Below are positions 3,102 to 28,342 of a stretch of 64,000 nucleotides of DNA, in pieces. Source of the DNA: Sandarakinorhabdus sp. AAP62 (GTDB lineage Bacteria > Pseudomonadota > Alphaproteobacteria > Sphingomonadales > Sphingomonadaceae); contig NZ_ANFY01000017.1 of the NCBI RefSeq assembly GCF_000331225.1, forward strand, positions 62,001 to 126,000, written 5' to 3'. How positions within the stretch are numbered: the first letter of the stretch is position 1; each line of letters begins with the position of its first letter. The notes beneath the pieces were generated by a model. That model had not been told where the DNA came from, did not search any database, and worked only from the letters and a program-made list of their open reading frames with translations. The position numbers and the translations under genes were made by a program.

Positions 3102-3814
3102 TACTGGCTCTCCATCCCGTCAAGCTGGCGGGAGAGGAGATTGAGATATTCCTCGGCAAAGGCGTTGAGGCGCGCTTCCAGCCGGTTCACGCGGTGGAGC
3201 AGGCGGTTGTAGCCGATCACGGCAGGAATGGCCGCAAACAGGCCGATGGCGGTGGCGAACAGGGCTTCGGCGATGCCCGGCGCCACCACGGCCAGCGAGG
3301 TGTTCTGGCTGGCGGCGATGCTGGCAAAGCTGCGCATGATGCCCCACACCGTGCCGAACAGGCCGACGAACGGCGCCACCGAACCGATGGTGGCGAGCGC
3401 GTTCAGCCGGTCTGACAGTTCATCGATATCGCGGCCGATGGCGACGCCCGTGGCGCTGGCCAGGCGCGAACGCAGGCCTTCGCGATCGATGCTGCGGCCG
3501 GACTTGCCGGCAAGGGTGCGGCGCCATTCGTTCATGCCGGCGAGAAAGACGCGGGCCGACGGGTGATCGGCGCGGGAGGCGGGTTCGTAGAGGCTGTCCA
3601 GGTCCTTGGCCTTCCAGAACCAGTCCTCGAACTTGGCGGCCTCGCCGTTCAGGCGCGATAGTCGCCGCGAGCGTTCGAGGATGATCGCCCAGCTCCAAAC
3701 ACTGGCCAGCAACAGCCCGAACATCACCGCCTTCACGACAATGTCCGCCTGCATGAACAGGGCGAAGGGCGACAGTTCGGCCGCGGTCTTGATGGCGATA
3801 TCGGCTTGCATCAT
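3101..3814 (-). CDS. tolQ: TolQ, MotA/TolQ/ExbB proton-channel subunit
   Basis: The start chosen is the ATG at 3814, which overlaps the ybgC stop (ATGA) and gives 237 residues beginning MMQADIAIK. A longer open frame upstream only reads through ybgC. There are three membrane segments: about residues 25-48, then the pair around SVAPFVGLFGTVWGIMRSF and LFATAIGLFAAIPAVIGYN. These last two carry the conserved channel-lining Thr and Pro/Gly residues of the family. TolQ forms the inner-membrane motor with TolR and uses the proton gradient to energise TolA for outer-membrane constriction. Second gene of the ybgC-tolQRA operon. Confidence 0.95.
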   Translation of the reverse strand: MMQADIAIKTAAELSPFALFMQADIVVKAVMFGLLLASVWSWAIILERSRRLSRLNGEAAKFEDWFWKAKDLDSLYEPASRADHPSARVFLAGMNEWRRTLAGKSGRSIDREGLRSRLASATGVAIGRDIDELSDRLNALATIGSVAPFVGLFGTVWGIMRSFASIAASQNTSLAVVAPGIAEALFATAIGLFAAIPAVIGYNRLLHRVNRLEARLNAFAEEYLNLLSRQLDGMESQ

Positions 3815-4257
3815 GGTTCCTGTGCCAGAAGTTCGTGGAACCGCGCCATCCAATAGCGCGGTTGCCGGCGGGGGCGGCCGGCGGGATCGAGGAATGCGGC
3901 GACAAGTGTTGCGTCCAGCAGTGGCTCGCCAGCGCGGGTGATGCGTTGGGCGATGGCGCAGGCCGCAGCGCGCACGGAGAGCAGGCGGGTTTCGATGGTC
4001 AACACATCGTCCAGCCTGGCCGGGCGCAGCCATTTGATCTGCATTTCGGTCACCGCATAGGCGCCTACACCGGCCTTCACCGCCGCACCGTGATCGATGC
4101 CGACCACCCGCAGGAATTCGGTGCGGCCCCGTTCCATGAAGTGCAGATATTTGGCGTGATACATGATGCCGGCCGTGTCCGTGTCTTCGAAATAGACACG
4201 CGCGGGCAGGCGGTGGATGCCGCCGTCGATCGCACCGGAGGGGGGAAGGGGGGACAT
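3811..4257 (-). CDS. ybgC: YbgC-family acyl-CoA thioesterase
   Basis: The 148-residue hot-dog-fold thioesterase carries the YFEDTDTAGIMYHAKYL signature in which the first Asp of DTD is the catalytic residue of the 4HBT/YbgC family, followed by FMERGRTEFLR. It hydrolyses short-chain acyl-CoA or acyl-ACP thioesters in the cytoplasm and is linked to phospholipid metabolism at the Tol-Pal site in other proteobacteria. It is the first gene of the tol operon, its stop overlapping tolQ. About 100 bp upstream, containing the rplS terminator, separates it from rplS, so the tol promoter must lie in that short gap. Confidence 0.93.
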   Translation of the reverse strand: MSPLPPSGAIDGGIHRLPARVYFEDTDTAGIMYHAKYLHFMERGRTEFLRVVGIDHGAAVKAGVGAYAVTEMQIKWLRPARLDDVLTIETRLLSVRAAACAIAQRITRAGEPLLDATLVAAFLDPAGRPRRQPRYWMARFHELLAQEP

Positions 4258-14544: not shown

Positions 14545-15417
14545 ATGATCCGCCCCGCCGCCGCCCTGATCCTGATCACCGCTGCCCCCGCATTGGCCCA
14601 GCAAGGCCCGGCGCCCGGCGTGCCCACCACAGTGCAGGGCGCGGCTGCGATGCGCCCGCCCGCGCCCAAGGCCTGGACCCTCGGCCTCGGCATCGCCCCC
14701 ATCTATGCGCCCGTCTGGCAGGGCAGCCGCGATTACGGCCTTTCGATCTTCCCGGATCTGCGCCTCAACTACAAGGATGAGGTGTTCCTCTCCGTGCCCG
14801 ATGGCCTTGGCTGGAACGCGATCAACCAGGATGGCTGGAAGATCGGCCCGCTCGCCAAGCTCCGCTTTGGCCGGCAGGAAAACAGCGGCGGCTCGCCCTT
14901 CCTCGTCACTCGCGGTTCCACGGCGCTGCGCGGCATGGGCGATGTCGATCTGGCCGGTGAATTCGGCGGCTTTGCCCAGAAAAGCCTGGCCGGTGGCAAG
15001 CTGCGCCTGCGCGCCGAAGTGCGGCAGGGCACCGGCGGCCACGATGGCCTGATTGCCGATACCATCATCGGCTGGAGCGACCGCAAGCAGGACTTCAGCC
15101 TGCTGTGGAACCTCTCCCTGCGCGCCACCTGGGCCGACAGCGACTACAGCAACATCTATTTCGGCGTCACCCCGGGGCAGAGCTTCGCCACCGGTCTCCC
15201 CAGCTTTCGCACCGGTTCGGGCCTGATCTCCGCCGGCGTCTCCGGCGCGCTCACCAGGCCGCTGGGCCGCTTTGGCAAGAACGGCGCGCTCACCCTGCTC
15301 GCCGGTTATGATCGGCTGGGCGACGTGGCGGCGGACTCACCCCTGATCCGCCTGCGCGGGCAGCGGGATCAGCTGTCGGTGGGGCTCAGCTACGGCGTGC
15401 GCTTCGGCTGGAACTGA
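14545..15417 (+). CDS. MipA/OmpV-family outer-membrane protein
   Basis: The start chosen is the ATG at 14545, giving 290 residues with a cleavable signal peptide (PAAALILITAAPALAQ). The mature part shows the MipA/OmpV pattern: LGLGIAPIYAPVWQGSRDYGLSIFPDLRLNYKDEVFLS near the N-terminus, alternating beta strands, and a C-terminal strand ending in aromatic residues (GVRFGWN) as expected for a BAM-assembled barrel. MipA acts as scaffold for murein synthesis and hydrolysis enzymes in E. coli, but many family members have no assigned role. It converges on the AAA ATPase gene across the palindrome cluster at 15418-15546. Confidence 0.88.
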   Translation: MIRPAAALILITAAPALAQQGPAPGVPTTVQGAAAMRPPAPKAWTLGLGIAPIYAPVWQGSRDYGLSIFPDLRLNYKDEVFLSVPDGLGWNAINQDGWKIGPLAKLRFGRQENSGGSPFLVTRGSTALRGMGDVDLAGEFGGFAQKSLAGGKLRLRAEVRQGTGGHDGLIADTIIGWSDRKQDFSLLWNLSLRATWADSDYSNIYFGVTPGQSFATGLPSFRTGSGLISAGVSGALTRPLGRFGKNGALTLLAGYDRLGDVAADSPLIRLRGQRDQLSVGLSYGVRFGWN

Positions 15418-15546
15418 ATCCCCTCTCCCCGCCGGGGAGAGGTCGCCTCGGGCGAAGCCCGGCGGGAGAGGGGCGACACGCGCGCCTTACCCCTCTCCCG
15501 GGCCGCCCTGCGGGCGTCTCTCGACCTCTCCCCGGCGGGGAGAGGT
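15418..15546. repeat. Two inverted copies of a REP-like palindrome between convergent genes
   Basis: The intergenic stretch consists of two GC-rich palindromic units in opposite orientation. Each has the core CTCTCCCCGCCGGGGAGAG or its mirror (near 15420-15442 and 15521-15546), and the inner arms GGGAGAGGGG (near 15464-15473) and CCCCTCTCCC (near 15490-15499) pair with one another. The pair resembles a BIME, the paired form of REP sequences. It lies between the 3' ends of the porin-like gene and the AAA ATPase gene, so it could also act as a two-way terminator. Confidence 0.75.
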
Positions 15547-15566
15547 GAAACGCCTCACGCCACGCC

Positions 15567-17057
15567 TCAGGCGACTCTGGCCAGCGATCCGCTGCCAACC
15601 CCCACGCCGTCGCCGCCACCAGGGCTGCGGCCCACGGTGAGATTGGCCAGCGCCAGCTGCACCAGTTCGCGGTGCAACGCCGGCGGCTGCGCCTTGAAGC
15701 GGGACGAAGCGACAATCTGCTCGATCAGGAACCGCGGCTGATAGGCGGCCAGATCCAGCCCCTGCGTCACGGTCAGATCATGCTCGATCGCGCGGATCTG
15801 GCCATCCTCGGCCTCGATGCCGTTCGCGGCCGCCACGCTCCTGAAAATGCGCCGCCACGCCTCGGGGGACGGCGGGCCAATCTCCAGCTTGTACGGAATA
15901 CGCCGCAGAAACGCCGGGTCCATCAGATCGGCCGGCGCCAGGTTGGTGGAGAAGATCACCACCGTCTGGAACGGCACCCGGAAACTCTTGCCGGTGGCCA
16001 GCTTCAGATAATCCACCCGGTTTTCCAGCGGCACGATCCAGCGGTTCAGCAGCGCCGTGGGCGACACCATCTGGCGGCCAAAGTCGTCGATCAGCAACAC
16101 GCCGCCCGCCGCCTTCATGTGCAACGGCGCGGTATAGAAATTGCCGCCCGCCTCATGCTTCAGATCGAGCATCTCCAGCGTCAGTTCACCCCCCGTCACG
16201 ATGAACGGGCGGCGGCACGGCACGAACCGGCCATCGGCTTCATCCCGGTACAGCGAAGCCACCAGGCGCGGGCGCGCGGCGGCGGCATCGCGATCCACCG
16301 GCAGATGCACATCCGGATCAAACACCGTCATCACCTGGCCTTCCACCAGCACGGCATGCGGAATGTGGATCACATGGCGAAACACGCGATCAAGCCGCTG
16401 CGCCACCGAAGTCTTGCCGTTGCCGGGCGGGCCATACATCAACAACGCCCGGCCCATGGTGATCGCCGGGCCCAGCTTGTTCACCAGCTCGTCCGCCACT
16501 TCCAGGCCATCAAACGACGCGCGCATGCCCGCCGCATCGATGATCTCGTTGGTCACCTTCTGGCGCTCGATCCAATGGGCATACACCTCCAGCGGCACCG
16601 GCGCCGGGCCGGTATAGCTGGACCGCGCCATCGCCTCGCGCGCCCGCGCCTTGCCCATGTCGGTCAATTCAAACCGCATGCCCAACTGGCCGCCGCCAAT
16701 GGAGCCCAACGCCGCCACCAACTGGCCCCGCGTCGCCGCCTCCAGCAACTCCGTCACCAGCCCCGGCGGCAAACGCAACGCGCCGGCAAGATCGGCCGTC
16801 GTCTCCGCCGTGCCAACAAACAGGAACTTCAACATCAGATCGATCAGAAACTGCTCGGGCAGGCCGGTCTCCGGGATGGTGGACGGCTCCACCGGCACCC
16901 CATCCACAAACTGCGCCAGCGCCTCCGGCGAAATCGCCCCGATCGCCACCAGATTGGGACCCAACCGACCACCCGCCTCAAGCTGACGATCAACCGCCAA
17001 CTCGATCTGCGCCTGGGTAACCAACCCGGCCGCCACCAACAACTCGCCAATCTGCAT
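15567..17057 (-). CDS. AAA ATPase with N-terminal MshEN-like domain
   Basis: The start is set at the ATG at 17057 (MQIGELLVAAGLVTQ), with GAGGGTGAGC just upstream, giving 496 residues. Residues 1-50 (IGELLVAAGLVTQAQIELAV, then GPNLVAIGAISPEAL) resemble the MshEN domain of type II secretion and pilus ATPases, which in some proteins binds c-di-GMP. A helical, winged-helix-like region follows. The AAA module, from about residue 200, shows YGPPGNGKTS (Walker A), GVLLIDDFGR (Walker B), VVIFSTNL (sensor 1) and FLRRIPYKLEIGPPS (arginine-finger region). No secretion or pilus genes are adjacent, so its partner is unknown. Convergent with the MipA/OmpV gene. Confidence 0.8.
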   Translation of the reverse strand: MQIGELLVAAGLVTQAQIELAVDRQLEAGGRLGPNLVAIGAISPEALAQFVDGVPVEPSTIPETGLPEQFLIDLMLKFLFVGTAETTADLAGALRLPPGLVTELLEAATRGQLVAALGSIGGGQLGMRFELTDMGKARAREAMARSSYTGPAPVPLEVYAHWIERQKVTNEIIDAAGMRASFDGLEVADELVNKLGPAITMGRALLMYGPPGNGKTSVAQRLDRVFRHVIHIPHAVLVEGQVMTVFDPDVHLPVDRDAAAARPRLVASLYRDEADGRFVPCRRPFIVTGGELTLEMLDLKHEAGGNFYTAPLHMKAAGGVLLIDDFGRQMVSPTALLNRWIVPLENRVDYLKLATGKSFRVPFQTVVIFSTNLAPADLMDPAFLRRIPYKLEIGPPSPEAWRRIFRSVAAANGIEAEDGQIRAIEHDLTVTQGLDLAAYQPRFLIEQIVASSRFKAQPPALHRELVQLALANLTVGRSPGGGDGVGVGSGSLARVA

Positions 17058-17409
17058 GCTCACCCTCGCGCTACACTCATTCACGTGAACGGCCACGCGC
17101 AGTTCTCCTGCACTCCAACCGTTCCAGCGACCCCAATCGCGGAAGTGTGTGTACACGCGAAGAGTTTATGATTTGCGAATCAATTTGTTGGGGGGGAAGG
17201 GGAGGAGAAGAGGGGGCCTCCGGCGGGCAGGGACGCAGTCCCTGCACCCGTTTGATTTGGGGCGGTCTGTTAGCCGTTCGCTGATCGGAATGCTTCGACC
17301 AGTGATACATCAGTGCACCGAGCACCATCAAAGCTGCTGAGGCACGGTATGGAAAAATTGCAGCTCACAAATCTTCCCATGCCGCTGGCAACCGGCTACC
17401 AAAATTTAC
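17058..17409. other. Intergenic stretch upstream of the AAA ATPase, left edge of the accessory zone
   Basis: No convincing gene lies here. The first 100 bp must hold the promoter of the AAA ATPase gene (-). A purine run (GGGGGGGAAGGGGAGGAGAAG, 17190-17210) leads into the left copy of the 40-bp inverted repeat, after which base composition shifts to AT-rich. A 41-codon open frame at 17349-17474 overlaps the start of the next gene and was not accepted. Confidence 0.6.
17214..17253. repeat. Left copy of a perfect 40-bp inverted repeat bounding the AT-rich islet
   Basis: This block is the exact reverse complement of 19360-19399. Its core GCAGGGACGCAGTCCCTGC (17227-17245) is itself an 8-bp stem with a 3-base loop, so each copy is a REP-like hairpin. 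Base composition changes just inside the repeat. Confidence 0.9.
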
Positions 17410-19152
17410 ATGAAATGCGCTCAGGTGATCCTTCACAGTTGCCTCACACTACCGCCTTCAAATGCGGGCGTTAGCATATTCGGGTTTGCAGAGTTTTTGG
17501 CTGCCCTCGCATTGTTGGTATTGGTCTTCAATTCGACTGACTACTTGTATCGGTTTCGAACTGCGGTTGCCCCGATCCCGCTCGTTCTCATCACGTTTGT
17601 GGCAACCGTGTTAATTGGTGCAGGTACGTTAATAACCGACCTTTGGTTCGCCGTACGGTGGCCGTCGCTGCCTTGGGGCCTATCCCTTGCGAGCATCCAG
17701 GGAATGTTTGCTACGCTCTTTCTGTTTACGGCGCTTCTCTGGATTTGGTTCGCGTTCATGCGCCCACCAATTTTCGGCCGATTTAACTGCAAGCGTTACC
17801 ATTCTGCGCTATATAGCGCATTGGTTCGTGGGTCGGACGCCCAACTCCCAATCTTAGCGGCGGAGGTGATGCGGTCTGCTCCGACGTTGATCCGAATTTT
17901 GAAGAATAGCAGTTCACAACAACAAATTGACAGTAGTGTAAATAAGAAAAATAATAGTGCAAGTGTCGTCGATTTTGCTCACAACGTATTACTGATGCTA
18001 GGAAATCGTAAACTTTGCCGACATATCGTTTCTTCATCTTCTGTCACTGCCATCGTTCTAATGGAAGAGGCTTCGTCAAATAAATGTTATAATGCGCCAT
18101 TGGGCGAATTTGCCCGTAACATCACTACAGAGGCATTACTTAACAAAGATTCTATCTTGTACCTCGAGGATGGACTTAATGCATCCGACTTAGTTGGCAT
18201 CATCCAGCCATTTAGTACGGCCATGTACGGAGATTACCAACTTGTGCAGCGAATCGGCTCAGGCCGATACTCTCCATTAGACATAGACTGGCGCGTGGTT
18301 TCTTCACTGGATGGTGACCAGTTTGATGCCTACTGTCGGATAACCCTCATAACCTTCAAAAATTTCATTGAAGGTGATTACTACCGACAGCATTCGACGG
18401 CGCTCTTTCGCGCATTTCAAAATATTGAAAGCGCAGGCCGGGACATATCTCGATTGAACGGGAGCCCGCCAGATGGCGAGCTTGATGTTGCCTCATTGCG
18501 GCTTATGGCAGCTGTCGGCTTTGTCGACGATGTAATCGATTTCCTTGGCGAAAAGCCTGACTTAGATTTCGGGCATCTCCGGGTTCACGAGACTGCACGT
18601 TATCATTCATCACCGATATTCGAACAAATCGCTCAGCTAGCCTATGATATTGTGCATAATGCCGCTTATGTTCAATCTCCTCCTGATCGCTCTTGGGGTG
18701 TTCAATATGTTCTCGTTTGGGGACGTATCTTTGGTTTCCGAGAAGAGAGTCCGGCTTGGAGAGTACTTCGCTTCAAGATTTTCCGATTATTGTTTAACGA
18801 CATTAAGGAGATGGAGCGCTGGCCGAATTACAAGGGTGCAAGAATATTAGGGATGTGCCTGAACGTTCTTGGTCTTACGGTAGGAGGGAAAGACGGACGC
18901 GACCGGCAAATGTATCCTTTCCGTAAGGCCGTGCTTAATTGGACGCGAAAAAACTATCTTTCGATTGTGAAGGCAAATCCGGACATAGCTGCATACTGCC
19001 TATGCGGAGGCGTCAGCTTCGACACAGATAACAATCGCTTAGTGAAGACCTATCGGCGCGGTACTAGGCTTGAACCTCCTCGCGAATATCTTCAACTCGA
19101 TGATCTGCAGCCCCCTGAAACGGACTCTAGCATCCACGATGGTGCACGCTAG
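17410..19152 (+). CDS. Unrecognised 580-residue membrane protein of an AT-rich islet
   Basis: I do not recognise this protein. Residues 1-20 are doubtful as a true N-terminus (weak ribosome-binding site). Three membrane helices follow (about 21-41, 55-76 and 94-116), then a cytoplasmic or periplasmic domain of about 460 residues. That domain includes a Ser/Asn/Lys-rich linker near 165-190 (QQQIDSSVNKKNNSASVV) and no P-loop, nuclease or metal motif that I can see. The gene is visibly AT-richer than its surroundings and uses codons rare elsewhere in the window (AAA, AAT, ATA, TTA), which points to horizontal transfer. It overlaps a small downstream gene by 14 bp, and the pair is enclosed by a 40-bp inverted repeat. 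Confidence 0.8.
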   Translation: MKCAQVILHSCLTLPPSNAGVSIFGFAEFLAALALLVLVFNSTDYLYRFRTAVAPIPLVLITFVATVLIGAGTLITDLWFAVRWPSLPWGLSLASIQGMFATLFLFTALLWIWFAFMRPPIFGRFNCKRYHSALYSALVRGSDAQLPILAAEVMRSAPTLIRILKNSSSQQQIDSSVNKKNNSASVVDFAHNVLLMLGNRKLCRHIVSSSSVTAIVLMEEASSNKCYNAPLGEFARNITTEALLNKDSILYLEDGLNASDLVGIIQPFSTAMYGDYQLVQRIGSGRYSPLDIDWRVVSSLDGDQFDAYCRITLITFKNFIEGDYYRQHSTALFRAFQNIESAGRDISRLNGSPPDGELDVASLRLMAAVGFVDDVIDFLGEKPDLDFGHLRVHETARYHSSPIFEQIAQLAYDIVHNAAYVQSPPDRSWGVQYVLVWGRIFGFREESPAWRVLRFKIFRLLFNDIKEMERWPNYKGARILGMCLNVLGLTVGGKDGRDRQMYPFRKAVLNWTRKNYLSIVKANPDIAAYCLCGGVSFDTDNNRLVKTYRRGTRLEPPREYLQLDDLQPPETDSSIHDGAR

Positions 19153-19336
19153 AGTTCTCCTACTGCTTGTCCCAATTGCCTTTCTGGTTGGCTCAGCTGT
19201 CGTAAGTCCAACATCTCATTCCACCGCCTGCGGCGCATTCGACAGGAGTAGGGCTATACAACTACAGGCACAGTTGCCAACCCACGCCTCTACTTGCACG
19301 GCGATGGTTACTGCCCTGCGCCAGCATAACGGCTGA
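19139..19336 (+). CDS. Small exported or membrane-anchored protein, 65 residues
   Basis: The start chosen is the ATG at 19139, inside the last codons of the 580-residue gene. A longer frame from 19070 would only add sequence antiparallel to known coding. The product begins VHARVLLLLVPIAFLVGSAVVS, a signal peptide or single membrane anchor, followed by about 40 residues with two cysteines (TACGAF and HASTCTAM) that could form a disulphide. No family recognised. The overlap with the upstream gene indicates translational coupling, so it may act together with it. Confidence 0.5.
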   Translation: MVHARVLLLLVPIAFLVGSAVVSPTSHSTACGAFDRSRAIQLQAQLPTHASTCTAMVTALRQHNG

Positions 19337-19359
19337 ATGTAAGGCAGGGGCCGCCAGAA

Positions 19360-19399
19360 AAACGGGTGCAGGGACTGCGTCCCTGCCCGCCGGAGGCCC
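19360..19399. repeat. Right copy of the 40-bp inverted repeat bounding the islet
   Basis: Exact reverse complement of 17214-17253, with the hairpin core GCAGGGACTGCGTCCCTGC at 19368-19386. It ends nine bases before the stop codon of the displaced uvrA fragment, so it may originally have been the hairpin downstream of uvrA. Confidence 0.9.
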
Positions 19400-19407
19400 T
19401 TCCTTCC

Positions 19408-19594
19408 TCAGCCCTTCCCCTTGCGCGCCCGCTTCACCGGGGCCGCCACCTCTGCCTCCACCGCCACATGCGCACCGGCCAATAGCGGCGCGAGATATTT
19501 GCCGGTCCAGCTGGTGTTGCAGGCGGCCACGGTTTCGGGGGTGCCGGTCACCACGATCTGGCCGCCTTTGTCGCCGCCGTCGGGGCAGAGATCG
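19408..19594 (-). pseudogene. Displaced duplicate of the uvrA 3' end
   Basis: This 187-bp block aligns without gaps to the last 187 bp of uvrA (20323-20509). In the inner 118 bp (19477-19594 against 20392-20509) I count six mismatches by hand; the terminal 69 bp coding for the basic tail are more diverged. The encoded piece ([16 protein letters not shown], then [12 protein letters not shown] and the tail APVKRARKGKG) is the C-terminus of UvrA with its reading frame and stop intact, but there is no start or upstream part. Homology stops abruptly at 19594. It is best read as the old 3' end of uvrA pushed aside by an insertion. Confidence 0.88.
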
Positions 19595-19611
19595 CTGGGC
19601 AATTTGGGCGG

Positions 19612-19803
19612 TTACCAGTCGCCGCCCGCTTTGGTGATGGCGGCGAGGAGGGCTTGTTTGCTCTTCGTGCGGCGGGTGCCGGTGTTGCGGGGGAGTTCGG
19701 GTTTGCCCAGGGCGGCACGGCGTTGGGCCAGGCGCTCAGCGAACTGGGCGAGCGGCGTGGCTTCGGCGGGTGCTTCAGCGGGTTTCGAGGATGGTGCGGC
19801 CAT
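19612..19803 (-). CDS. Small basic protein of the uvrA-linked cargo, 63 residues
   Basis: The start chosen is the ATG at 19803 ([15 protein letters not shown]), within the end of the nucleotidyltransferase-like gene (overlap 29 bp). A GTG three codons earlier is also possible. The N-terminal third is Ala/Pro/Glu-rich. The rest is basic and helical (FAERLAQRRAALGKPELP, then RNTGTRRTKSKQALLAAITKAGGDW). I do not recognise a named family. Its position directly behind the nucleotidyltransferase-fold gene, in the same orientation, makes it a likely partner, but no toxin or antitoxin role can be claimed from sequence. Confidence 0.6.
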   Translation of the reverse strand: MAAPSSKPAEAPAEATPLAQFAERLAQRRAALGKPELPRNTGTRRTKSKQALLAAITKAGGDW

Positions 19804-20326
19804 GGTCTCCACCGGTTTCTTCCCGGATACGCCGCTCAAGATAGTCTTCGTCCAGATGTTCGGCAAGGCGGCTGAGCAGGCGGGCTTGTTCCAGCATTTC
19901 GCTGGCGGTGCCGGAATGATATTGGGCAACGCGATCAGCGATCAGATCTTCGATGGGTATGACAGCCAGTTTTTCGCCGCTGTTGACGGCGAACAGGCGG
20001 ATACGGTCCCGGTCGGCATGGCCGTCCATCAGGGTATCGGCGACGATTTCGAAGCCCAGGGCGAGATCGGGATGCACCCAGCCTCTGGTCAAAAGGCCGG
20101 GGCCGCTGGGTTTGACGAAGCCTCTGGCTTGCAGTGCGGCTTCCACCACATCTTGCCGGATCGCGACCAGATCGAAATCGCCCGTTGCGATGGCGCTGCC
20201 GGAATAAAGCTCGGCGGCTGCGCCACCGACAAGGACGGGGCGGGGGAAGCCTTGCGCGGCGACGGCATCACTGACCTCGGCCAGCACAGTGAGGGCGGCA
20301 TCAAATTGCGGCCGCCACAGGCTCAT
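19775..20326 (-). CDS. Nucleotidyltransferase-fold protein inserted at the uvrA 3' end
   Basis: The 183-residue product has the pattern of a pol-beta-type nucleotidyltransferase: a helix, then [25 protein letters not shown] (GG motif followed by the DxD-like DFD), a later acidic strand [10 protein letters not shown], and [14 protein letters not shown] followed by helices. AbiEii-type and DUF6036-type proteins share this layout. Whether it transfers nucleotides is unknown. Its ATG at 20326 overlaps the uvrA stop (ATGA), so it is coupled to uvrA translation. It lies between the two copies of the uvrA 3' end and was most likely brought in by the insertion event. Confidence 0.72.
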
Positions 20327-23268
20327 GCCTTGGCCTTGCGGGGGCGCTTCACCGGCGCGGCGGATTCTTCCTCCACCGGACGCGGCGCGTTGGCCAATAA
20401 CGGCGCGAGATATTTGCCGGTCCAGCTGGCGTCGCAGGCGGCCACGGCTTCGGGGGTGCCGGTCACCACGATCTGGCCGCCTTTGTCGCCGCCATCGGGG
20501 CCGAGATCGATGATGTGGTCGGCGGTTTTGATGACGTCGAGATTGTGTTCGATGACGACGACGCTGTTGCCTTGTTCCACCAGGGCGTGGAGGACTTCGA
20601 GCAGTTTGCGGACGTCTTCGAAATGCAGCCCGGTGGTGGGTTCATCGAGGATGTAGAGCGTGTTGCCGGTGGCGCGGCGGGAGAGTTCCTTGGCGAGTTT
20701 GACGCGTTGGGCTTCGCCGCCCGAAAGGGTGGTGGCTTGCTGGCCGATCTTGACGTAGCCGAGGCCGACTTCGAGCAGCATGGCGAGTTTTTCGCGGATG
20801 GGCGGCACGGCCTTGAAGAACTCCACGCCGTCTTCGATCGTCATGTCCAGCACGTCGGCGATGGATTTGCCCTTGAATTTCACTTCCAGGGTTTCGCGGT
20901 TGTAGCGGTGGCCGTGGCAGACGTCGCAGGTGACATAGACATCGGGCAGGAAGTGCATTTCGATCTTGATCAGGCCGTCGCCCGAGCAGGCCTCGCAGCG
21001 GCCGCCCTTCACGTTGAAGCTGAAGCGGCCGGGTTTGTAGCCGCGGGCGAGCGATTCCGGCAGGCCGGCGAACCAATCGCGGATATTGGTGAAGCAGCCG
21101 GTGTATGTCGCGGGGTTTGATCGGGGCGTGCGGCCGATGGGGGATTGATCGATGTCGATCACTTTATCGAGGTGGTTCAACCCGTCGAGGCCATCGTGCG
21201 GGGCGGCGAGCAGCCTCGCGCCGTTCAGTTCGCGCGCGGCGGCGTTGTAGAGCGTATCGATGGTGAAGGTGGATTTGCCGCTGCCCGACACGCCGGTGAT
21301 GCAGGTGAAGGTGCCAAGCGGGATGCTGGCGGTGACGCCCTGCAGATTGTTGCCGCGGGCGTTTTTCACGGTGAGTTTCTTGCCCGTGCCCTTGCGGCGT
21401 TTGGCCGGCACCGGGATGGAGCGGCGGCCTGACAGATAGGCGCCGGTGATGCTGGTGGGGCTGTTCAATATATCCTGCAGGCTGCCGGCCGCGACGACTT
21501 CGCCGCCGTGGACGCCGGCGCCGGGGCCCATATCCACCACATAATCGGCCAGGCGGATGGCATCTTCATCATGTTCCACCACCAGCACCGTGTTGCCCAG
21601 ATCGCGCAGGCGTTTCAGCGTGGTGAGCAGGCGATCATTGTCGCGCTGGTGCAGCCCGATGGAGGGTTCATCGAGCACATAGAGCACGCCGGACAGGCCG
21701 GAGCCGATCTGGGAGGCGAGGCGGATGCGCTGGGATTCGCCGCCCGACAGCGTGCCGGACTTGCGATCGAGGTTGAGATAATCAAGGCCGACATTGTCGA
21801 GGAAGCCGAGCCGCTCGATGATTTCCTTCAGGATGCGATCGCCGATGGCGCGTTGTTTGGGGGTGAGATGATCGGCGACGCCGCGCGCCCAGGCCAGCGC
21901 CTGGCCGACGGGGCGGCGCACGGCGGTGGAGATGGTTTCGCCGGCGATCTTCACGGAGAGCGCCTCGGGGCGAAGGCGATCGCCGTGGCAGACTTCGCAG
22001 GGGGAGGGGGACTGGTAGCGCTCCAGCTCCTCGCGCATCATGGTGCTTTCGGTGTTGAGGCGCTTTTCCAGGTTGCGGACGACGCCTTCGAAGGTCTTGA
22101 CGACCTCATAGGCCTTGCGCCCGTCTTCGAAGCGCAGCGGAATGGCGCGGCTGCCGGTGCCGTGCAGGACGGCGTGGCGCTGTTCTTCCGTCAGGTCCGC
22201 CCATCTGGATTTGAGCGTGAAGCCATAGGCGCGGCCAACGCTGGCCAGCACCTGCAGATAATAGGGCGAGGGCGGGTTGGATTTGGCCCACGGCGCGACG
22301 GCGCCCTTTTCCAGTGTGAGCGCGTGGTTGGGGACGATGAGATCGGGATCGAAATGCTGTTTTTCGCCCAGGCCGTCGCAGGCCGGGCATGCACCTTGCG
22401 GAGCGTTGAAGGAGAACAGCCGGGGTTCGATTTCGGAAATGGTGAAGCCGGACACCGGGCAGGCGAATTTTTCGGAGAAGAGGATGCGCTCGGCTGTAGG
22501 GCTCGCTGCGCTCGCACCCTCCCCCGACCCCTCCCTTGCAGGGAGGGGAGAATCAGCCAGTTCGACGAAGGCGATGCCCTCGGCCAGTTTCAGCGCGGTT
22601 TCGAAGCTTTCGGCGAGGCGGGATTCCAGGCCCTCCTTCACCGCCAGCCGGTCCACCACCACGTCGATGTCGTGCTTGTATTTCTTGTCGAGCGCCGGGG
22701 CTTCCTCGATGGCATAAAACGCGCCGTCGATCTTCACGCGGGTGAAGCCGTCCTTCTGCAGCTGGGCCAGCTCCTTGCGGTACTCGCCCTTGCGGCCACG
22801 CACGATGGGGGCGAGCAGGTAGAGGCGGGTGCCTTCCGGCAGCGCCATGACGCGATCGACCATCTGGCTGACGGTTTGCGCAGTGATCGGCAGGCCGGTG
22901 GCCGGCGAATAGGGGATGCCGACGCGCGCCCACAGCAGGCGCATATAGTCGTAGATCTCGGTGACGGTGGCGACGGTGGAGCGCGGGTTCTTGCTCGTCG
23001 TCTTCTGTTCGATGCTGATCGCCGGCGACAGGCCCTCGATATGGTCCACGTCCGGCTTGGACATCATTTCCAGGAACTGGCGGGCATAGGCGGAGAGCGA
23101 TTCCACGTAGCGCCGCTGGCCTTCGGCATAGATGGTATCAAAGGCGAGGGACGACTTGCCGGAGCCGGACAGGCCGGTGATCACGGTGAGCGCGTTCTTG
23201 GGCAGATCGACGTCTACCCCTTTCAGATTATGCTCCCGCGCGCCGCGCACCTGGATATGGTTCAGCAT
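20323..23268 (-). CDS. uvrA: UvrABC excinuclease subunit A
   Basis: The start chosen is the ATG at 23268 ([23 protein letters not shown]), giving 981 residues; the frame open upstream to 23382 is not UvrA-like. Both ABC ATPase modules are present ([20 protein letters not shown] and [10 protein letters not shown]; two LSGGE signatures, [15 protein letters not shown] and [14 protein letters not shown]), as are zinc-finger cysteines ([16 protein letters not shown] with CDVCHGHRY). UvrA dimers scan DNA for bulky lesions and load UvrB. Two oddities: a palindromic repeat is translated in frame at about residues 238-260, and the final 62 codons belong to the copy of the 3' end that came with the downstream insertion. 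Confidence 0.96.
22495..22552. repeat. Palindromic REP-like element translated in frame inside uvrA
   Basis: A perfect 9-bp stem CCCCTCCCT/AGGGAGGGG (22528-22536 with 22540-22548, 3-base loop) is preceded by the repeat-like GCTCGCTGCGCTCGC near 22501-22515. Read on the uvrA strand it encodes roughly [18 protein letters not shown], a low-complexity segment in the spacer before [12 protein letters not shown], where UvrA proteins vary in length. Outer limits of the element are estimated. Confidence 0.7.
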
Positions 23269-23403
23269 GAGCCCGTATGTTCCACATTTGTTCAGGCCGT
23301 GCAAGCCGGCTTGATCGGGAGTTACGAGGCGCAGGCGGCCACGGCAAGGGCTGGCGCAGGCGCAGCACTGTCGCAGTGGCATTCAGCATGAAACACGGCA
23401 GAG

Positions 23404-23429
23404 CCACCCCCGGATCAAGCCGGGGGTGG
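23404..23429. repeat. Palindromic hairpin between uvrA and a membrane protein gene
   Basis: A perfect 10-bp stem (CCACCCCCGG and CCGGGGGTGG) with the loop ATCAAG, extended by one further base pair. The sequence with an ATCAAG loop is of the type that recurs between genes in sphingomonads. It lies 55 bp past the stop of the gene at 23484 (-) and could end its transcript, although no T-run follows. Confidence 0.6.
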
Positions 23430-23483
23430 CCGTGCCATGCGAAGCTCTACCAACTGTTGATAGAGCGAAGAAAGAACAGAGGC

Positions 23484-23897
23484 TTACAGCCCTGCCAACC
23501 GTCGGTTGCGGCCTTCCAGCCACGTTCCGGCGAGCAGCGCAGCGATCACCGCGTAGGACCAGAAGATCAGGCCGACCGCATAGGCCCACGCCATGCCACC
23601 GCTGGCATTGGTGAGGCTGCCGACATGCACCAGCAGGCCAACCAGCTGGAAGGCAGAGGCATACATCGGCCAGAAGCGATCACTCGTCAGCGCCAGCGCC
23701 AACAGGCCGAGCAGCAGACCGAAGTCCACGGCCAGCACGCCATATTCCACGTGCTGATATTCGGCGGTGATCATGCGGGTGGCGAGCGTGGCGGCCAGGA
23801 AGCCGATCGCGGCCAATTGTTCATCACGACCGCCGAAGCCAAAGGCCAGCAGGGCCGCGGCGACAACGGTGACAACAGCAAGAATTTCAAGAAACAT
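23484..23897 (-). CDS. Hypothetical four-helix membrane protein
   Basis: The 137-residue product is hydrophobic throughout, with about four predicted membrane segments: LEILAVVTVVAAALLAFGF, LAAIGFLAATLATRM, YGVLAVDFGLLLGLLALAL and the C-terminal AWAYAVGLIFWSYAVIAALLAG. No catalytic or binding motif is visible. It lies upstream of uvrA in the same direction, separated by about 215 bp including a hairpin, so it is probably its own transcription unit. Function unknown. Confidence 0.75.
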   Translation of the reverse strand: MFLEILAVVTVVAAALLAFGFGGRDEQLAAIGFLAATLATRMITAEYQHVEYGVLAVDFGLLLGLLALALTSDRFWPMYASAFQLVGLLVHVGSLTNASGGMAWAYAVGLIFWSYAVIAALLAGTWLEGRNRRLAGL

Positions 23898-23979
23898 CGT
23901 CCATACTCCAGACGAGAAGCGGTCTCCGGCGCATCAGCGCCATGAACCCAGTTTCAGCTGAAAAAGGCTTGCGCCCAGA

Positions 23980-24336
23980 TCATGCCGCGATCGTGAGGTG
24001 ACGGCGCGGCGTAACCGTTTCGTCCAGGCTGCCCTGTTCCGGCGGGCAGTTGCCCATGAAGTTCACGGCATCGAGGCCGATCTGGGTCTGGGCGGCGCGC
24101 AGGGCGGCGTGCGTGGCGATGATGCGCGAACGGGCCTGCACCAGCTGCTGGCAGGTTTCCATGGCGCCCATCAGGGCGTCCTGGCCGATGCAGGCCGCCA
24201 GATTGGCTTCCTGGGCGGCCATGGGCATCACGGCGGTGAGTTGGGCCACAGCCGACACGGCGGCATTGATGGCGGCTTCAGCGGCGAACAGCTGCTCGGC
24301 AACCTTGTTCGCGGCGAGACGACGTTCTTTCAGCAT
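23980..24336 (-). CDS. Hypothetical helical protein, 118 residues
   Basis: The sequence is Ala- and Gln-rich and predicted mostly helical (KVAEQLFAAEAAINAAVSAVAQLTAVM, then METCQQLVQARSRIIATHAALRAAQTQIG). It has three cysteines (ACIGQD, TCQQ, NCPPEQ) and no signal peptide. No family recognised. It lies directly downstream of the LuxR-type regulator gene in the same direction (95 bp apart, with a hairpin between), which makes it a candidate target or partner of that regulator. Confidence 0.6.
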   Translation of the reverse strand: MLKERRLAANKVAEQLFAAEAAINAAVSAVAQLTAVMPMAAQEANLAACIGQDALMGAMETCQQLVQARSRIIATHAALRAAQTQIGLDAVNFMGNCPPEQGSLDETVTPRRHLTIAA

Positions 24337-24398
24337 AGCACAATCCTTTTGAATAAAAGAACTGGCGGCTGATACGCGCAGCCAGTTGGTTAGACGCC

Positions 24399-24429
24399 CT
24401 TCCGGACGCCACGCAACTGGTTCCGGAAG
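24399..24429. other. Hairpin between the LuxR-type gene and the 118-residue protein gene
   Basis: An 8-bp inverted repeat CTTCCGGA (24399-24406) and TCCGGAAG (24422-24429) encloses 15 bases, just behind the regulator stop codon. No T-run follows on the minus strand, so it may be an attenuating or stabilising hairpin rather than a full terminator. Confidence 0.4.
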
Positions 24430-24431
24430 CT

Positions 24432-25253
24432 CTAAACGAGTGTCTTTAATGCAGCCAGGGCAGCGAGAATGCCGCCGAAGCTCAGCGCAGAGGCCATGGC
24501 GATCCCCATGATCCAGCCAAGCCTGTGGCCGATTCCGAGATCATTCTTCTGGCCCCACGGCCGTGTCTGGTGAAACGGTGTGGTGTGGAATGGCCGGGCA
24601 CCAATGCCAGGGTCGGGGGCTGCAATGCCCGGCCAATCCGTTGCAAGCGTCGCCGAAGCGATATTGCCTGCTGATGCACCGGGTTGGGCGAGGGAGCCAC
24701 CTGATGGACCAACATCCAGCCTGCCAAGAGGTGGGTGCAGCGTCCTTGCGAGGGATCCATGTTCTAGCTGATTGGGGTCGCTGGAACGATTGGAGGCTGC
24801 ACCCGGTTCCTGAGAAGCCGGTGCCCCAATCGTCGCTGATTTCGCGTCGTCAGCAATCTCCGAAGCTTGGTATATCAATTCCTGATACGCATCGCCGGTG
24901 CCGTTATCAGCGACGGGCTGGGCGATACCAAGGAGAATCTCGGTATGGACGAGGGCGCGGGCCGCCTCGATCCGGTTGGTGACCTCAAGCTTGCGTATGG
25001 CCTGGCGCAGCCGCATATCAACGGTATGCGGCGACACACCGAGCTGGCGCGCGATGTCCTTGCTGGTCATGTGCTGGAAAACGAGACGCAGGCAATCGCG
25101 CTCCGCATCGGTCAGCAGCGTCACACGCGGATTGCGCGGGCCATCAGAGTCTTGCCGTGTTGCCACAATAGAACACAGTGACGGGAAGGCGGCAAAGTCA
25201 AGCGTTGCCACGCCCGCACCCCCGATATTCTTTGAAATTCGACCACTCAGCAT
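24432..25253 (-). CDS. LuxR-type HTH regulator with a C-terminal membrane anchor
   Basis: The start chosen is the ATG at 25253 (MLSGRISKNIGG), giving 273 residues; the frame runs open to 25328 but the added residues look non-coding. The helix-turn-helix (LTDAERDCLRLVFQHMTSKDIARQLGVSPHTVDMRLRQAIRKLEV, given here in pieces: LTDAERDCLRLV, SKDIARQLGVSPHTVDMRL) is near the N-terminus, at about residues 40-100. A polar Ser/Pro/Gly linker follows, then one C-terminal membrane helix (IMGIAMASALSFGGILAALAAL). No receiver or autoinducer domain is present. A DNA-binding domain held at the membrane by its C-terminus is unusual for LuxR proteins. Divergent from the carboxyltransferase gene. Confidence 0.82.
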   Translation of the reverse strand: MLSGRISKNIGGAGVATLDFAAFPSLCSIVATRQDSDGPRNPRVTLLTDAERDCLRLVFQHMTSKDIARQLGVSPHTVDMRLRQAIRKLEVTNRIEAARALVHTEILLGIAQPVADNGTGDAYQELIYQASEIADDAKSATIGAPASQEPGAASNRSSDPNQLEHGSLARTLHPPLGRLDVGPSGGSLAQPGASAGNIASATLATDWPGIAAPDPGIGARPFHTTPFHQTRPWGQKNDLGIGHRLGWIMGIAMASALSFGGILAALAALKTLV

Positions 25254-25573
25254 AGCCGCGACCCCATGCGACGCTAAAAACCAAAATGATTTATGAGCCT
25301 TTCCCCAGAGGGAAACAAGGCAAAACACGCGTTCTGGCGGCGACGGAATGCCACAACCCGGAAAACATAAACCATTTTGCAGGGGTTTGGCAAGGTTTCT
25401 TCCGATTTGGCGTCAAACCCTTGGTGCAAGCCCTGCGAATCCCGTTTTGGGCCCGTTTTGGGAACGAATCGGCCCGGATCCGAATCAGCCTCTCCAAACA
25501 TGCACTTTCAGCCACCTGCTCGGCCTGCCACGATGGTGACTTATCAATCATTGAGATGGGGTTTGATAGGCTG
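25254..25573. other. Divergent intergenic region between the LuxR-type gene and the carboxyltransferase gene
   Basis: About 320 bp without a convincing gene, AT-richer than its surroundings. The plus-strand frame is open through it from 25286, but the encoded residues do not resemble the carboxyltransferase family. It contains the short inverted repeat TTTCCC/GGGAAA near 25301-25315. It should hold promoters for both flanking genes; I cannot place -35/-10 boxes with confidence. Confidence 0.5.
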
Positions 25574-27121
25574 ATGGGCTGGGAATCAGAGATTGATGAG
25601 CTTGGCCGCCGCCGCGAGGCCGCGCATGGCATGGGCGGGCTGGAGAAATTGGCCCGGCAGCGCGCGCAAGGGAAATTGAACGTGCGTGAAAGGCTGGCGG
25701 CGCTGGTCGATCCCGGCAGCTTCCACGAGGTGGGCGAGCTTGCCGGCTTTGCCCGTTACGACGACGCGGGCGAGATGACCGGGTTTCAGCCGGCCAATTT
25801 CCTGTTTGGCAATGCCACTATCGATGGCCGGCCGGTGGTGGCGACCGCCGATGATTTCACCGTGCGTGGCGGCGCGGCTGATGCCAGCCTGCACCGCAAG
25901 CTGATCGCGGCCGAGCAGCTGGCCAGCGAATATCGCCTGCCATTGATCCGCATGATCGAGGGCACCGGCGGCGGCGGCAGCGTGCGCACGCTGGAAAGCG
26001 CCGGTTACACCTATATCCCCGAAATCCCCGGCTGGGAGCTGATGACCGCCAACCTTTCCCGGGTGCCGGTGGTGGCGTTGGGCCTGGGGCCGGTCGCCGG
26101 GCTGGGTGCTGGCCGGATGGTGATGGCGCATTATTCGCTGCTGGTGGATGGGTTGGCGCAGATGTTCGTTGCCGGGCCGCCGGTGGTGGCGGCCGCCGGG
26201 GAGAGCCGCACCAAGGAAGAACTGGGTGGCGCCGCCATCCATGCCGCCAATGGCGCGGTGGACGATCGGGTGGCGAGCGAGGCGGAGGCGTTTGCCCGCA
26301 CGCGCTGGTTCCTCTCCTATCTGCCGTCTTCCGTGGACGAACTGCCAGCGCGGGCCGCCTGCCGCGATCCGGCAACCCGCGCCGAGGAATGGCTGATCGG
26401 CGCGGTGCCGCGCGATCCGCGCCGGCTCTATCCGGTGCGGCCGATCGTGGAAGCGGTGGTGGACAAAGGCAGCTGGTTCGAGATCGGGCGGGAGTGGGGC
26501 ACGGGCGTGGTGACCGGTCTTGCCCGGCTGGATGGCTGGCCCGTGGCGATTGTCGCGTCCAACCCGGAAAGCCTGGGCGGGCTGTGGACGGCAGCCACCG
26601 CACGCAAGGTCGAACGCATGGTGGACCTGGCTGACAGCTTCCATCTGCCGATCATCCAGCTGGTTGATAATCCCGGTTTCCTGATCGGACGCAGGGCGGA
26701 GGAAGAGGCGACAATTCGCTGGGGTTCCAGAGCGTTAGCGGCCATATATCAAGCATCCGTACCCTGGTGCTGCGTGGTGATGCGCAAGGCCTATGGCATG
26801 GCGGGCAGCGGCCACGCACCGGCCGACCGATTCCGCTGGCGCATGGCGTGGCCGTCGGGCGACTGGGGTTCGCTGCCCATCGCCGGCGGGCTGGAAGCGG
26901 CCTATCGCGCCGATCTGGAAGCTGCCGAAGACCCGGCGGCGAAGCTGGCCGAGATCAAGGCCAGGCTGGAACAGGTGCGATCGCCGTTCCGCACGGCGGA
27001 GAAGTTTGGCGTGGAAGCGATCATTGATCCGCGCACCACGCGGGCGGAACTGTGCCGCTTTGCCACCATGGCGCAACGGGCGTTGAAGCCGGGGGCGAAG
27101 GGGCGGGGGCTGCGGCCCTGA
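25574..27121 (+). CDS. Acyl-CoA carboxylase carboxyltransferase (beta) subunit
   Basis: The start chosen is the ATG at 25574 (MGWESEIDELGRRRE), giving 515 residues, with AGG five bases upstream; an ATG at 25556 is the alternative. The two crotonase-like halves of the propionyl-CoA/methylcrotonyl-CoA carboxylase beta family are visible: LNVRERLAALVDPGSFHEVGELAG, the oxyanion-hole region IEGTGGGGSVRTLE with LGPVAGLGAGRMV, then GRLYPVR-type start of the second half, VDNPGFLIGRRAEEEATIRWG and VVMRKAYGMAGSG. It transfers carboxyl from biotin to an acyl-CoA. No biotin carboxylase or biotin-carrier gene is nearby, so the partner subunit must be elsewhere. Substrate not determinable. Confidence 0.88.
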   Translation: MGWESEIDELGRRREAAHGMGGLEKLARQRAQGKLNVRERLAALVDPGSFHEVGELAGFARYDDAGEMTGFQPANFLFGNATIDGRPVVATADDFTVRGGAADASLHRKLIAAEQLASEYRLPLIRMIEGTGGGGSVRTLESAGYTYIPEIPGWELMTANLSRVPVVALGLGPVAGLGAGRMVMAHYSLLVDGLAQMFVAGPPVVAAAGESRTKEELGGAAIHAANGAVDDRVASEAEAFARTRWFLSYLPSSVDELPARAACRDPATRAEEWLIGAVPRDPRRLYPVRPIVEAVVDKGSWFEIGREWGTGVVTGLARLDGWPVAIVASNPESLGGLWTAATARKVERMVDLADSFHLPIIQLVDNPGFLIGRRAEEEATIRWGSRALAAIYQASVPWCCVVMRKAYGMAGSGHAPADRFRWRMAWPSGDWGSLPIAGGLEAAYRADLEAAEDPAAKLAEIKARLEQVRSPFRTAEKFGVEAIIDPRTTRAELCRFATMAQRALKPGAKGRGLRP

Positions 27122-27132
27122 GGGCGCGCGCC

Positions 27133-27402
27133 TCAATCCTGCGGAGGCGGCGTCATCCCCATCGCCTGCATGCGCTTCATGCCTTCCATCAGCTCGGGCT
27201 GGGTGACAAAGCCATCCTTGTCGGCATCCAGCATGGCGAAGCCCATCTCGCGGCGACCGGCGGCGAGCCATTCCTCCTTGCTCCACTTGCCGTCCTTGTT
27301 GGCATCGGCGGCGATCAGACGTTCCCGCGGGGTGGCGGGCGCGGCTGCCTGTGCGAAAGCGGGCGTGGCGGCGAGCAGGGTGAGGGCAAGGAACAGGCGC
27401 AT
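27133..27402 (-). CDS. Exported EF-hand calcium-binding protein
   Basis: The 89-residue protein has a signal peptide (LFLALTLLAATPAFAQA) and two EF-hand loops, DANKDGKWSKEEW and DADKDGFVTQPEL, each with the Asp/Asn-x-Asp-x-Asp/Gly pattern and a closing Glu at position 12. It ends in a Met/Pro-rich tail. Small periplasmic EF-hand proteins of this size are common in sphingomonads; their roles are mostly unknown. It converges on the carboxyltransferase gene. Confidence 0.88.
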   Translation of the reverse strand: MRLFLALTLLAATPAFAQAAAPATPRERLIAADANKDGKWSKEEWLAAGRREMGFAMLDADKDGFVTQPELMEGMKRMQAMGMTPPPQD

Positions 27403-27470
27403 CGATGCAATCTCCGGTTGGATGGGGCCAGCCTATCAACGGTTGAGACAGGCGCAATCCCCCGCAAGAT

Positions 27471-27495
27471 CACCTCTCCCCGCCAGGGAGAGGTG
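27471..27495. repeat. REP-like palindrome
   Basis: A perfect 10-bp stem CACCTCTCCC/GGGAGAGGTG with the 5-base loop CGCCA. The core matches the units at 15418-15546, so it belongs to the same repeat family. It lies eight bases past the NUDIX gene stop (-), where it may serve as a terminator hairpin. Confidence 0.75.
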
Positions 27496-27502
27496 AGCGC
27501 GC

Positions 27503-28342
27503 TTATTCCCGCCGCATGTTGCTGACGCGGTCGCCGGTGACCGGATAGTCGATGCCTTCGGGAATGGTCAGCCACGGCTCGCCGTCGCGGGTGACAAACG
27601 CCGGCTGCACATAGGGGGCGGGCAGAGCGCTGACCCGTTCGAACAGCGAGGCCAGCGTTTGATATTGCGCCAGCCGGTGCATGTTGCACCAGGTGGGGAA
27701 CACCATGGCGGCGCGGCCGGCGTCATAATCGGCGATGGCCTGGGCCGCCGTTGTCCAGCGCAGCGCCTGCGCCTCGAACCCATCGGGGCTGATCACGGCG
27801 CTGGCGGAACGGCCCGCATCGGCCAGATAGAAGCGCGTATCAAAGCGGCGGGCGATGGCGGCGGCGGCAGGTGGCTCCCAACGGGCGAAGGGGATGAAGC
27901 GGGCGGCATCCACCTTGTGGCCCATGGCGCCCAGCATGCCGGCAAAGCCCACGGCTTCGGCTTCATCCGGCCCGGCGGCGAGCAGGGAGCGGGCATGGGC
28001 CAGGGCGGCTTCGTCGGGGTGGGGGCCCTCGGTCAAGAGCACGCCGGTTTCCTCCAGCGCTTCGCGGGCGCAGGTGATGCGGGCGGCGGCGTCGAGATCT
28101 TCAAGGCCGTCGAAGCCCATGGCCAGCAGCTCGTTGCGGGCGATGTGGATATCGGCGGCATCGACCCGGCCACCGGGGAAGACCAGCGCGCCGCCGGCAA
28201 AAGCGAGATTTTCGCCGCGTTGCACCAGCAGATATTCGGGCACGCCGCCCGGCCCTTCGCGGGCCAGAATCACGGTGGCAGCCTGGATGGAGACGGGTTT
28301 GGCGGAGTCAGTCATGTGGCGATGATAAGCCGCGTCTTGCAT
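27503..28342 (-). CDS. NUDIX hydrolase
   Basis: The start at 28342 has AGGGA seven bases upstream and gives 279 residues; an ATG at 28315 would shorten it by nine. The NUDIX box is present but stretched: ALVFPGGRVDAAD near residue 55, then after an insertion REALEETGVLL near residue 100, keeping the RExxEE core. The long spacing is that of the COG0494-type proteins related to NUDT19/RNU, which cleave CoA or similar diphosphates. A C-terminal region (ALRWTTAAQAIADYDAG, then MVFPTWCNMHRLAQY) matches this larger subgroup. Substrate unknown. Confidence 0.85.
   Translation of the reverse strand: MQDAAYHRHMTDSAKPVSIQAATVILAREGPGGVPEYLLVQRGENLAFAGGALVFPGGRVDAADIHIARNELLAMGFDGLEDLDAAARITCAREALEETGVLLTEGPHPDEAALAHARSLLAAGPDEAEAVGFAGMLGAMGHKVDAARFIPFARWEPPAAAAIARRFDTRFYLADAGRSASAVISPDGFEAQALRWTTAAQAIADYDAGRAAMVFPTWCNMHRLAQYQTLASLFERVSALPAPYVQPAFVTRDGEPWLTIPEGIDYPVTGDRVSNMRRE

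Follow-up and report, generated by a model that had tools for sequence, protein, structure and literature searches.

In the family Sphingomonadaceae small gene cassettes appear to have settled repeatedly at the 3' end of the DNA-repair gene uvrA. We describe the arrangement from a stretch of 64,000 nucleotides (nt) of Sandarakinorhabdus sp. AAP62 (contig NZ_ANFY01000017.1, positions 62,001 to 126,000; hereafter the window), in which two small genes, encoding a nucleotidyltransferase-fold protein (NT) and a basic protein (SM), lie between uvrA and a second copy of its own 3' end, and from related genomes in which other cargo occupies this position. Together these loci make up a family-wide hotspot where no integrase was seen, and the product is of the type termed insertion with long target duplication.

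An initial annotation of the window had noted the end of uvrA twice around two genes, and a direct-repeat search recovered it as two copies in the same orientation, 191 nt long and 84% identical, which form the top direct-repeat family within 15000-28000. The outer copy lies 915 nt beyond the copy in use and, in a shuffle test of the module flanks, the observed value was 261.5 against a maximum of 36.5 in 60 shuffles. The features concerned are as follows (aa, amino acids).

20323..23382, minus strand: uvrA open reading frame from the first ATG of the frame, with UvrA domains by Pfam
20322..20512, minus strand: uvrA 3' end in use, inner repeat copy, from the repeat and the comparison of copies
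19775..20326, minus strand: NT, nucleotidyltransferase-fold protein of 183 aa, possible toxin, from the open reading frame, predicted fold and conserved residues, with a 4-nt overlap between its ATG and the uvrA stop
19612..19803, minus strand: SM, basic protein of 63 aa, possible antitoxin, from the open reading frame, which overlaps the end of NT
19598..19614, minus strand: right junction, with uvrA-like sequence within ~15 nt of the SM stop; the alignment begins at the SM stop
19407..19597, minus strand: displaced uvrA 3' end (remnant), outer repeat copy, from the repeat, the comparison of copies and the shared flank
19360..19420, no strand assigned: repeat-family element beside the remnant, which also flanks the remnants of genomes G001, G003 and G011
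15567..17156, minus strand: AAA ATPase-like gene (named by eye), native downstream neighbour of uvrA, which it adjoins in genome G020

The cargo runs NT then SM, both on the strand of uvrA, and the open reading frames bear out the annotated overlap between the NT ATG and the uvrA stop, which may couple expression of the two genes, as well as the small basic gene that follows. The real start of uvrA is probably, as judged by eye, ~38 codons inside the first ATG of its frame.

The outer copy had been interpreted as the displaced end of uvrA, and this reading held: its flank is that of the remnants in G001, G003 and G011, and it lies on the side of the native ATPase neighbour. An empty site, which the initial annotation expected in relatives, is present in G020, with a single uvrA end and no cargo; there ~20 nt separate uvrA from the 5' region of the ATPase gene, whereas in the window the same ATPase gene lies beyond the remnant and one further inserted gene. 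Behind uvrA, G001, G003 and G011 carry a 2.5-kb cargo encoding a membrane protein (no Pfam match), a fatty-acid hydroxylase and a LysR protein. This cargo ends with the LysR stop and is followed by a uvrA remnant with the flank of the window, of ~57 nt and beginning 40 nt after the stop in G001, of ~20 nt and immediate in G011, and likewise by eye in G003; the window genome lacks this LysR gene. Between the window and G001 the remnant tails agree at 78%, while the two tails are 67 and 68% identical, respectively, to the kept ends of their own genomes, and therefore the displacement probably predates the separation of these two lineages, with the cargo having changed since.

An ungapped comparison of the two window copies over 198 nt gave 37 differing sites which are unevenly distributed, with 6 in the inner 111 nt, in agreement with the six mismatches counted earlier, versus 23 in the last 69 nt (p 1e-6). 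Measured against the pattern among relatives, the same contrast in the remnant gave p 0.01-0.05. Since the inner part of the remnant is nearly identical to the kept end, the two copies may have exchanged sequence with each other or with an incoming copy.

The outer copy was also considered as a member of a genome-wide repeat, and this was ruled out because the repeat family, for which 62 places were listed in a search of the window's own genome, covers only its flank (19360-19420). A gene of 580 aa (17410-19152, plus strand; no Pfam match) separates the uvrA remnant from the native ATPase neighbour; it is framed by two inverted 61-nt copies of this repeat family (89% identical; region 17193-19420), and by appearance it looks like a separate insertion.

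Displaced uvrA ends across the Sphingomonadaceae

A uvrA match was obtained in 378 of 397 genomes of the family (E 1e-3; profile of six sequences), and a second round covered 55 genomes, namely those with more than two matches together with G422 and G012, from which 20 loci were fetched. The duplicate was present at the DNA level in 18 of these 20 loci, weakly so in L197 (46 nt, 76%); L198 (G327) and L206 (G343), fetched as possible duplications, yielded no confirmation at that level. With the window, G212 and G326 added, 21 of the 378 uvrA-matched genomes carry a displaced uvrA end close downstream, and this is a lower bound for genomes because short remnants, such as those of G001, G003 and G011, escape the family search.

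Different cargo at the same uvrA end, another expectation of the initial annotation, was found in several family genomes. NT and SM are followed by a uvrA remnant in the window, in Sphingomonas cavernae (L116, with the identical locus L146), in L149 and in L074; L129 and L099 retain a more decayed remnant and L078 one at the limit, and most of the remaining uvrA-linked NT-SM modules have no uvrA remnant behind SM. Elsewhere the uvrA copies enclose HicA and HicB (L199), a SnoaL-like gene and more (L203), a 56-aa lipoprotein-like gene, named by eye, as the sole clear cargo (L204 in G132 and L205 in G108), or other genes (L200 and L201). In L202 (G147) a GIY-YIG nuclease gene occupies, on the opposite strand, the place expected for NT, and the uvrA remnant is kept; an SM-like frame before that remnant was named by eye and is not confirmed. 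In G012 (L058 and L059) a second uvrA 3' end stands at the very end of another contig, and this genome probably also carries a displaced end whose cargo was lost in an assembly gap. The name VapC-like, given by eye to a frame behind uvrA in G012, is unconfirmed, with no Pfam match, and was not retained.

Near-empty duplications, with only 32-119 nt between the uvrA copies, occur in 11 genomes. Six of them, from six genera (L187, L188, L189, L190, L191 and L197), share TGACGATG directly after the uvrA stop, and given these common bases the events are fewer than the genomes; the shared bases reflect either one inherited event or what was left behind by a lost cassette whose beginning resembled NT.

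Three control genes were searched in 199 genomes each, and extra copies of the 3' end were found in 0 of 194 matched genomes for LipA, 0 of 170 for MetG and 0 of 197 for FtsY, where the second match seen in nearly all genomes is presumably the paralogue Ffh. Fisher tests of the uvrA count against these gave p values of 2e-4 (LipA), 5e-4 (MetG) and 2e-4 (FtsY), which are optimistic owing to genome kinship; a six-sequence profile was used for uvrA and single sequences for the controls. MetG makes a weak control on account of its poorly conserved C-terminus, and the set of controls, at three genes, is small. Given the absence of extra copies at these genes, the idea that 3' ends in general are duplicated at the rate of uvrA was dropped. 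In a class-wide search uvrA was matched in 130 of 142 genomes at E 1e-6, a stricter threshold than in the family survey and, among the matches listed, a close second uvrA end occurred in the window's own genome only, with G461, G535 and G552, at three uvrA matches each, left aside. Four matches were obtained in G446, perhaps including a paralogue.

The NT-SM module and its proteins

NT and SM constitute a conserved module, common in sphingomonads, which was previously unnamed. Relatives of NT occur in 5 of 60 relatives of the window's genome (itself counted in), in 2 of 24 genomes of its genus and in 34 of 397 genomes of the family, as well as at 64 loci of the genome collection, where 144 stretches matched a pattern; the notion that the cargo is a one-off was dropped in view of the relatives in the collection and the family. 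Relatives are also plasmid-borne in Croceicoccus (3 records) and Acidiphilium (2 records), and none was found in the phage records searched.

SM follows NT in 74 of the 93 loci other than the window, and uvrA adjoins NT in 35 of 94 loci with the window included, or 32 once 3 repeats between the collections are removed. In 23 of these 32 the NT start overlaps the uvrA stop and the other 9 modules lie 15 to 430 nt behind uvrA. The uvrA-linked arrangement extends over several genera and is found, with a decayed NT, outside the family but within the order (G037). Genes other than uvrA also precede the module, named by eye as ribonucleotide reductase beta (L077, L088 and L130), altronate dehydratase-like (L113 and L115) and HAD-like (L105). 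Both uvrA and nrdB are DNA-damage genes, and the positions behind uvrA and the ribonucleotide reductase gene, if the latter is rightly named, would tie the module to DNA damage.

At L115, from the Acetobacteraceae, a distant NT relative and an SM-like frame (2340-3850) stand behind the altronate dehydratase-like gene, whose own 3' end is duplicated over 291 nt at 84%, a layout as at uvrA in another gene and another family.

A tree of 67 NT proteins, 29 of them uvrA-linked, was built after excluding 8 distant or odd rows and proteins of <150 aa. The uvrA label required 11 changes, against a shuffled mean of ~22; well-supported branches force at least 4 of these changes, and the hypothesis of a single uvrA-linked clade was rejected. 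The NT proteins of the window and of G017, members of the same genus, are placed in separate regions of the tree, where long branches advise caution. A uvrA-NT-SM locus in a record titled Bacillus sp. 2B10 (L081) groups with Sphingomonas hankookensis, and the record is probably mislabelled or contaminated.

The structure model of NT, built with 27 homologues, reached a predicted local distance difference test score (pLDDT) of 91.3, and the G-G and D-x-D motifs expected of nucleotidyltransferases are invariant across the 27 sequences. Its nearest solved folds include MenT1 and MenT3, which are toxins, and ANT(2'')-Ia, an enzyme of resistance, all of which are distant, with template modelling (TM) scores of about 0.5-0.6 and about 15% identity. 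Pfam gave for NT only sub-threshold nucleotidyltransferase families (DUF2204, DUF6036), the DUF1814 match that was sought not being among them, and NT sequence profiles fail to reach MenT. An NCBIfam search of 5 proteins returned nothing useful, and PADLOC, run on 4 proteins, gave AbiEii alone, for one NT homologue (E 0.014). SM has a basic, conserved C-terminus and no convincing relative among solved structures.

In the MenAT1 system MenT1 is blocked by the 68-aa antitoxin MenA1 (PMC10435456), and by analogy NT-SM is most likely to be a toxin-antitoxin pair. The modelled NT would have the fold of MenAT-type toxins, with their G-G/S and D-x-D motifs, and both partners are small (68 aa for MenA1 and 63 aa for SM). 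The match is, however, distant (TM ~0.57, ~15% identity) and ANT(2'')-Ia fits about equally well; moreover, menA1 lies upstream of the toxin gene in the system as described there, whereas SM lies downstream of NT.

Origin of the displaced ends

The best explanation for these loci, to which we give a probability of about 0.58, is homologous recombination within uvrA combined with illegitimate or remnant-mediated joining and followed by later turnover of the cargo. In the donor DNA a cassette, NT-SM in the case of the window, would stand behind a uvrA 3' end. On the left side this DNA would recombine homologously with the resident uvrA and, on the right, it would be joined, either without homology or via an existing remnant, to a point inside the resident 3' end. 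In the outcome uvrA would stay whole, with the cassette as the next reading frame behind it, and the resident 3' end would remain downstream as a decaying remnant. Where a remnant already existed, the two copies could then be used as homology arms for cargo swaps.

The left junction, between the uvrA stop and the NT start, is mostly constant, as expected if it is brought by homologous recombination. The start of the duplicate varies widely, lying ~196 nt before the module in the window, ~284 nt in L116, ~302 nt in L149 and ~230 nt in L074, and in L199 reaching 426 nt ahead of the uvrA stop, which argues against fixed attachment. Counted by codon position, the changes that separate a kept copy from its displaced counterpart lie mostly at third positions in many pairs, among them L149 (4/3/29), L202 (7/1/35), L189 (7/5/31) and L190 (7/4/33). 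Copies with such a bias diverged as working genes, so that the kept end probably came with the cargo. The count for L116 (18/17/24) was set aside because the alignment overruns the duplicate. For G326 and G147, which belong to one genus, the kept end is 87 and 80% identical, respectively, to its own remnant and the two kept ends are 85% identical to each other, and no donor was singled out.

Several observations weigh against this explanation. Codon bias is slight or absent in the window pair (10/9/13), in L129 (7/9/9) and in L205 (3/2/3), and in the window it is the kept copy that appears native-like and the displaced copy that deviates, without codon bias. The initial proposal that uvrA was restored with an imported 3' end is thus, on the codon evidence, well supported for several relatives and not supported for the window itself. 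The NT relatives that come closest are ~64% identical, and the searches yielded no donor for the window's module. The right junction often falls at the last cargo stop or within ~15 nt of it, which is tidier than random joining predicts; erosion of the remnant can yield such a junction, as in G011 and G003, and the tidiness remains unexplained. Nor does the model explain why uvrA is hit while the three control genes are spared.

A more specific form of the recombination model, which we regard as possible though not likely, is that these are mobile cassettes free of any recombinase, for which the 3' end of a conserved gene would serve as a portable homology arm: entry would depend on RecA, the gene would be rebuilt, and the old end would become a second arm, permitting slot-like exchange. 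If this were true, cargo of the toxin-antitoxin type would make an occupied slot hard to lose.

Somewhat less probable is that the uvrA end was duplicated in tandem where it stood, that cargo entered between the copies later and that the outer one decayed. The inner parts of the window copies differ at 6 of 111 nt, fewer than the 14-16 differences of the window's kept copy from G001, G003 and G011, and both the unbiased deviation of the window remnant and the 11 near-empty duplications would fit such an origin. It is opposed by the strong third-position bias of many pairs, which requires separate evolution under selection, and by the tail of the window remnant, which is nearer to the remnant of G001 than to the window's own kept end; the native flank on the remnant would, moreover, be a matter of chance only.

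We consider it improbable that the uvrA 3' end contains an attachment site at which an integrase encoded elsewhere places small non-autonomous elements, in the manner of phages and islands at tRNA genes. Such integration, to which the initial annotation had likened the locus, would account for one gene end being hit repeatedly while three control genes are not, for the restoration of uvrA every time and for the NT-SM right end lying near the SM stop in several genomes. The comparison failed on the start of the duplicate inside uvrA, which differs between genomes by >200 nt and does not fit a fixed attachment core, and the module is found behind other genes too. No recombinase was found in the window's insert, which consists of NT and SM only, and the initial annotation had likewise noted no integrase; the cargo of other genomes was annotated only in part, and an integrase acting in trans was not searched for.

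Least credible of all is an old, vertically inherited uvrA-NT-SM operon lost by most lineages, with the duplicated ends as unrelated noise, since the occurrence in several genera and, with decayed NT, in G037, together with the clustering of uvrA-linked NT genes, is outweighed by the presence of NT in 34 of 397 family genomes and in two of the window's genus that stand apart in the tree (on long branches), by the rejection of a single uvrA clade, and by duplicated ends that also surround other cargo and are found at none of the control genes.

Relation to known systems

It has long been asked how gene sets as small as toxin-antitoxin pairs spread in the absence of transposases and integrases. 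The displaced ends record each arrival, so that such movement can be counted from one genome to the next and put to laboratory tests. The literature searched, from which most subscription journals were missing, contained no paper on a hotspot at the uvrA 3' end.

A close parallel to the arrangement is homology-facilitated illegitimate recombination, proposed for type VI effector-immunity modules of Vibrio cholerae (PMC5361080). As described in that account, those modules have a conserved upstream anchor, a non-homologous right end and an old 3' end moved downstream, as here. The displaced part is there the variable effector and immunity cargo itself, whereas at the sites described here it belongs to conserved uvrA, which is whole and unrelated to the cargo.

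Insertion with long target duplication was described for restriction-modification genes of Helicobacter pylori (Nobusato et al. 2000, as cited in PMC1643837 and PMC4978471). In both cases a small and possibly selfish gene set lies inside a long direct repeat of resident sequence, and the citing accounts report no transposase or integrase. In the window the repeat surrounds the inserted genes and is single at the empty site of G020, and the arrangement recurs across genomes, as is also characteristic of that type, with some of the near-empty cases possibly sharing an origin. Unlike the H. pylori case as cited, the repeat here is the 3' end of a housekeeping gene, it occurs with varied cargo in numerous genomes within a single family, and the frame of the first cargo gene begins before that of the restored gene has ended.

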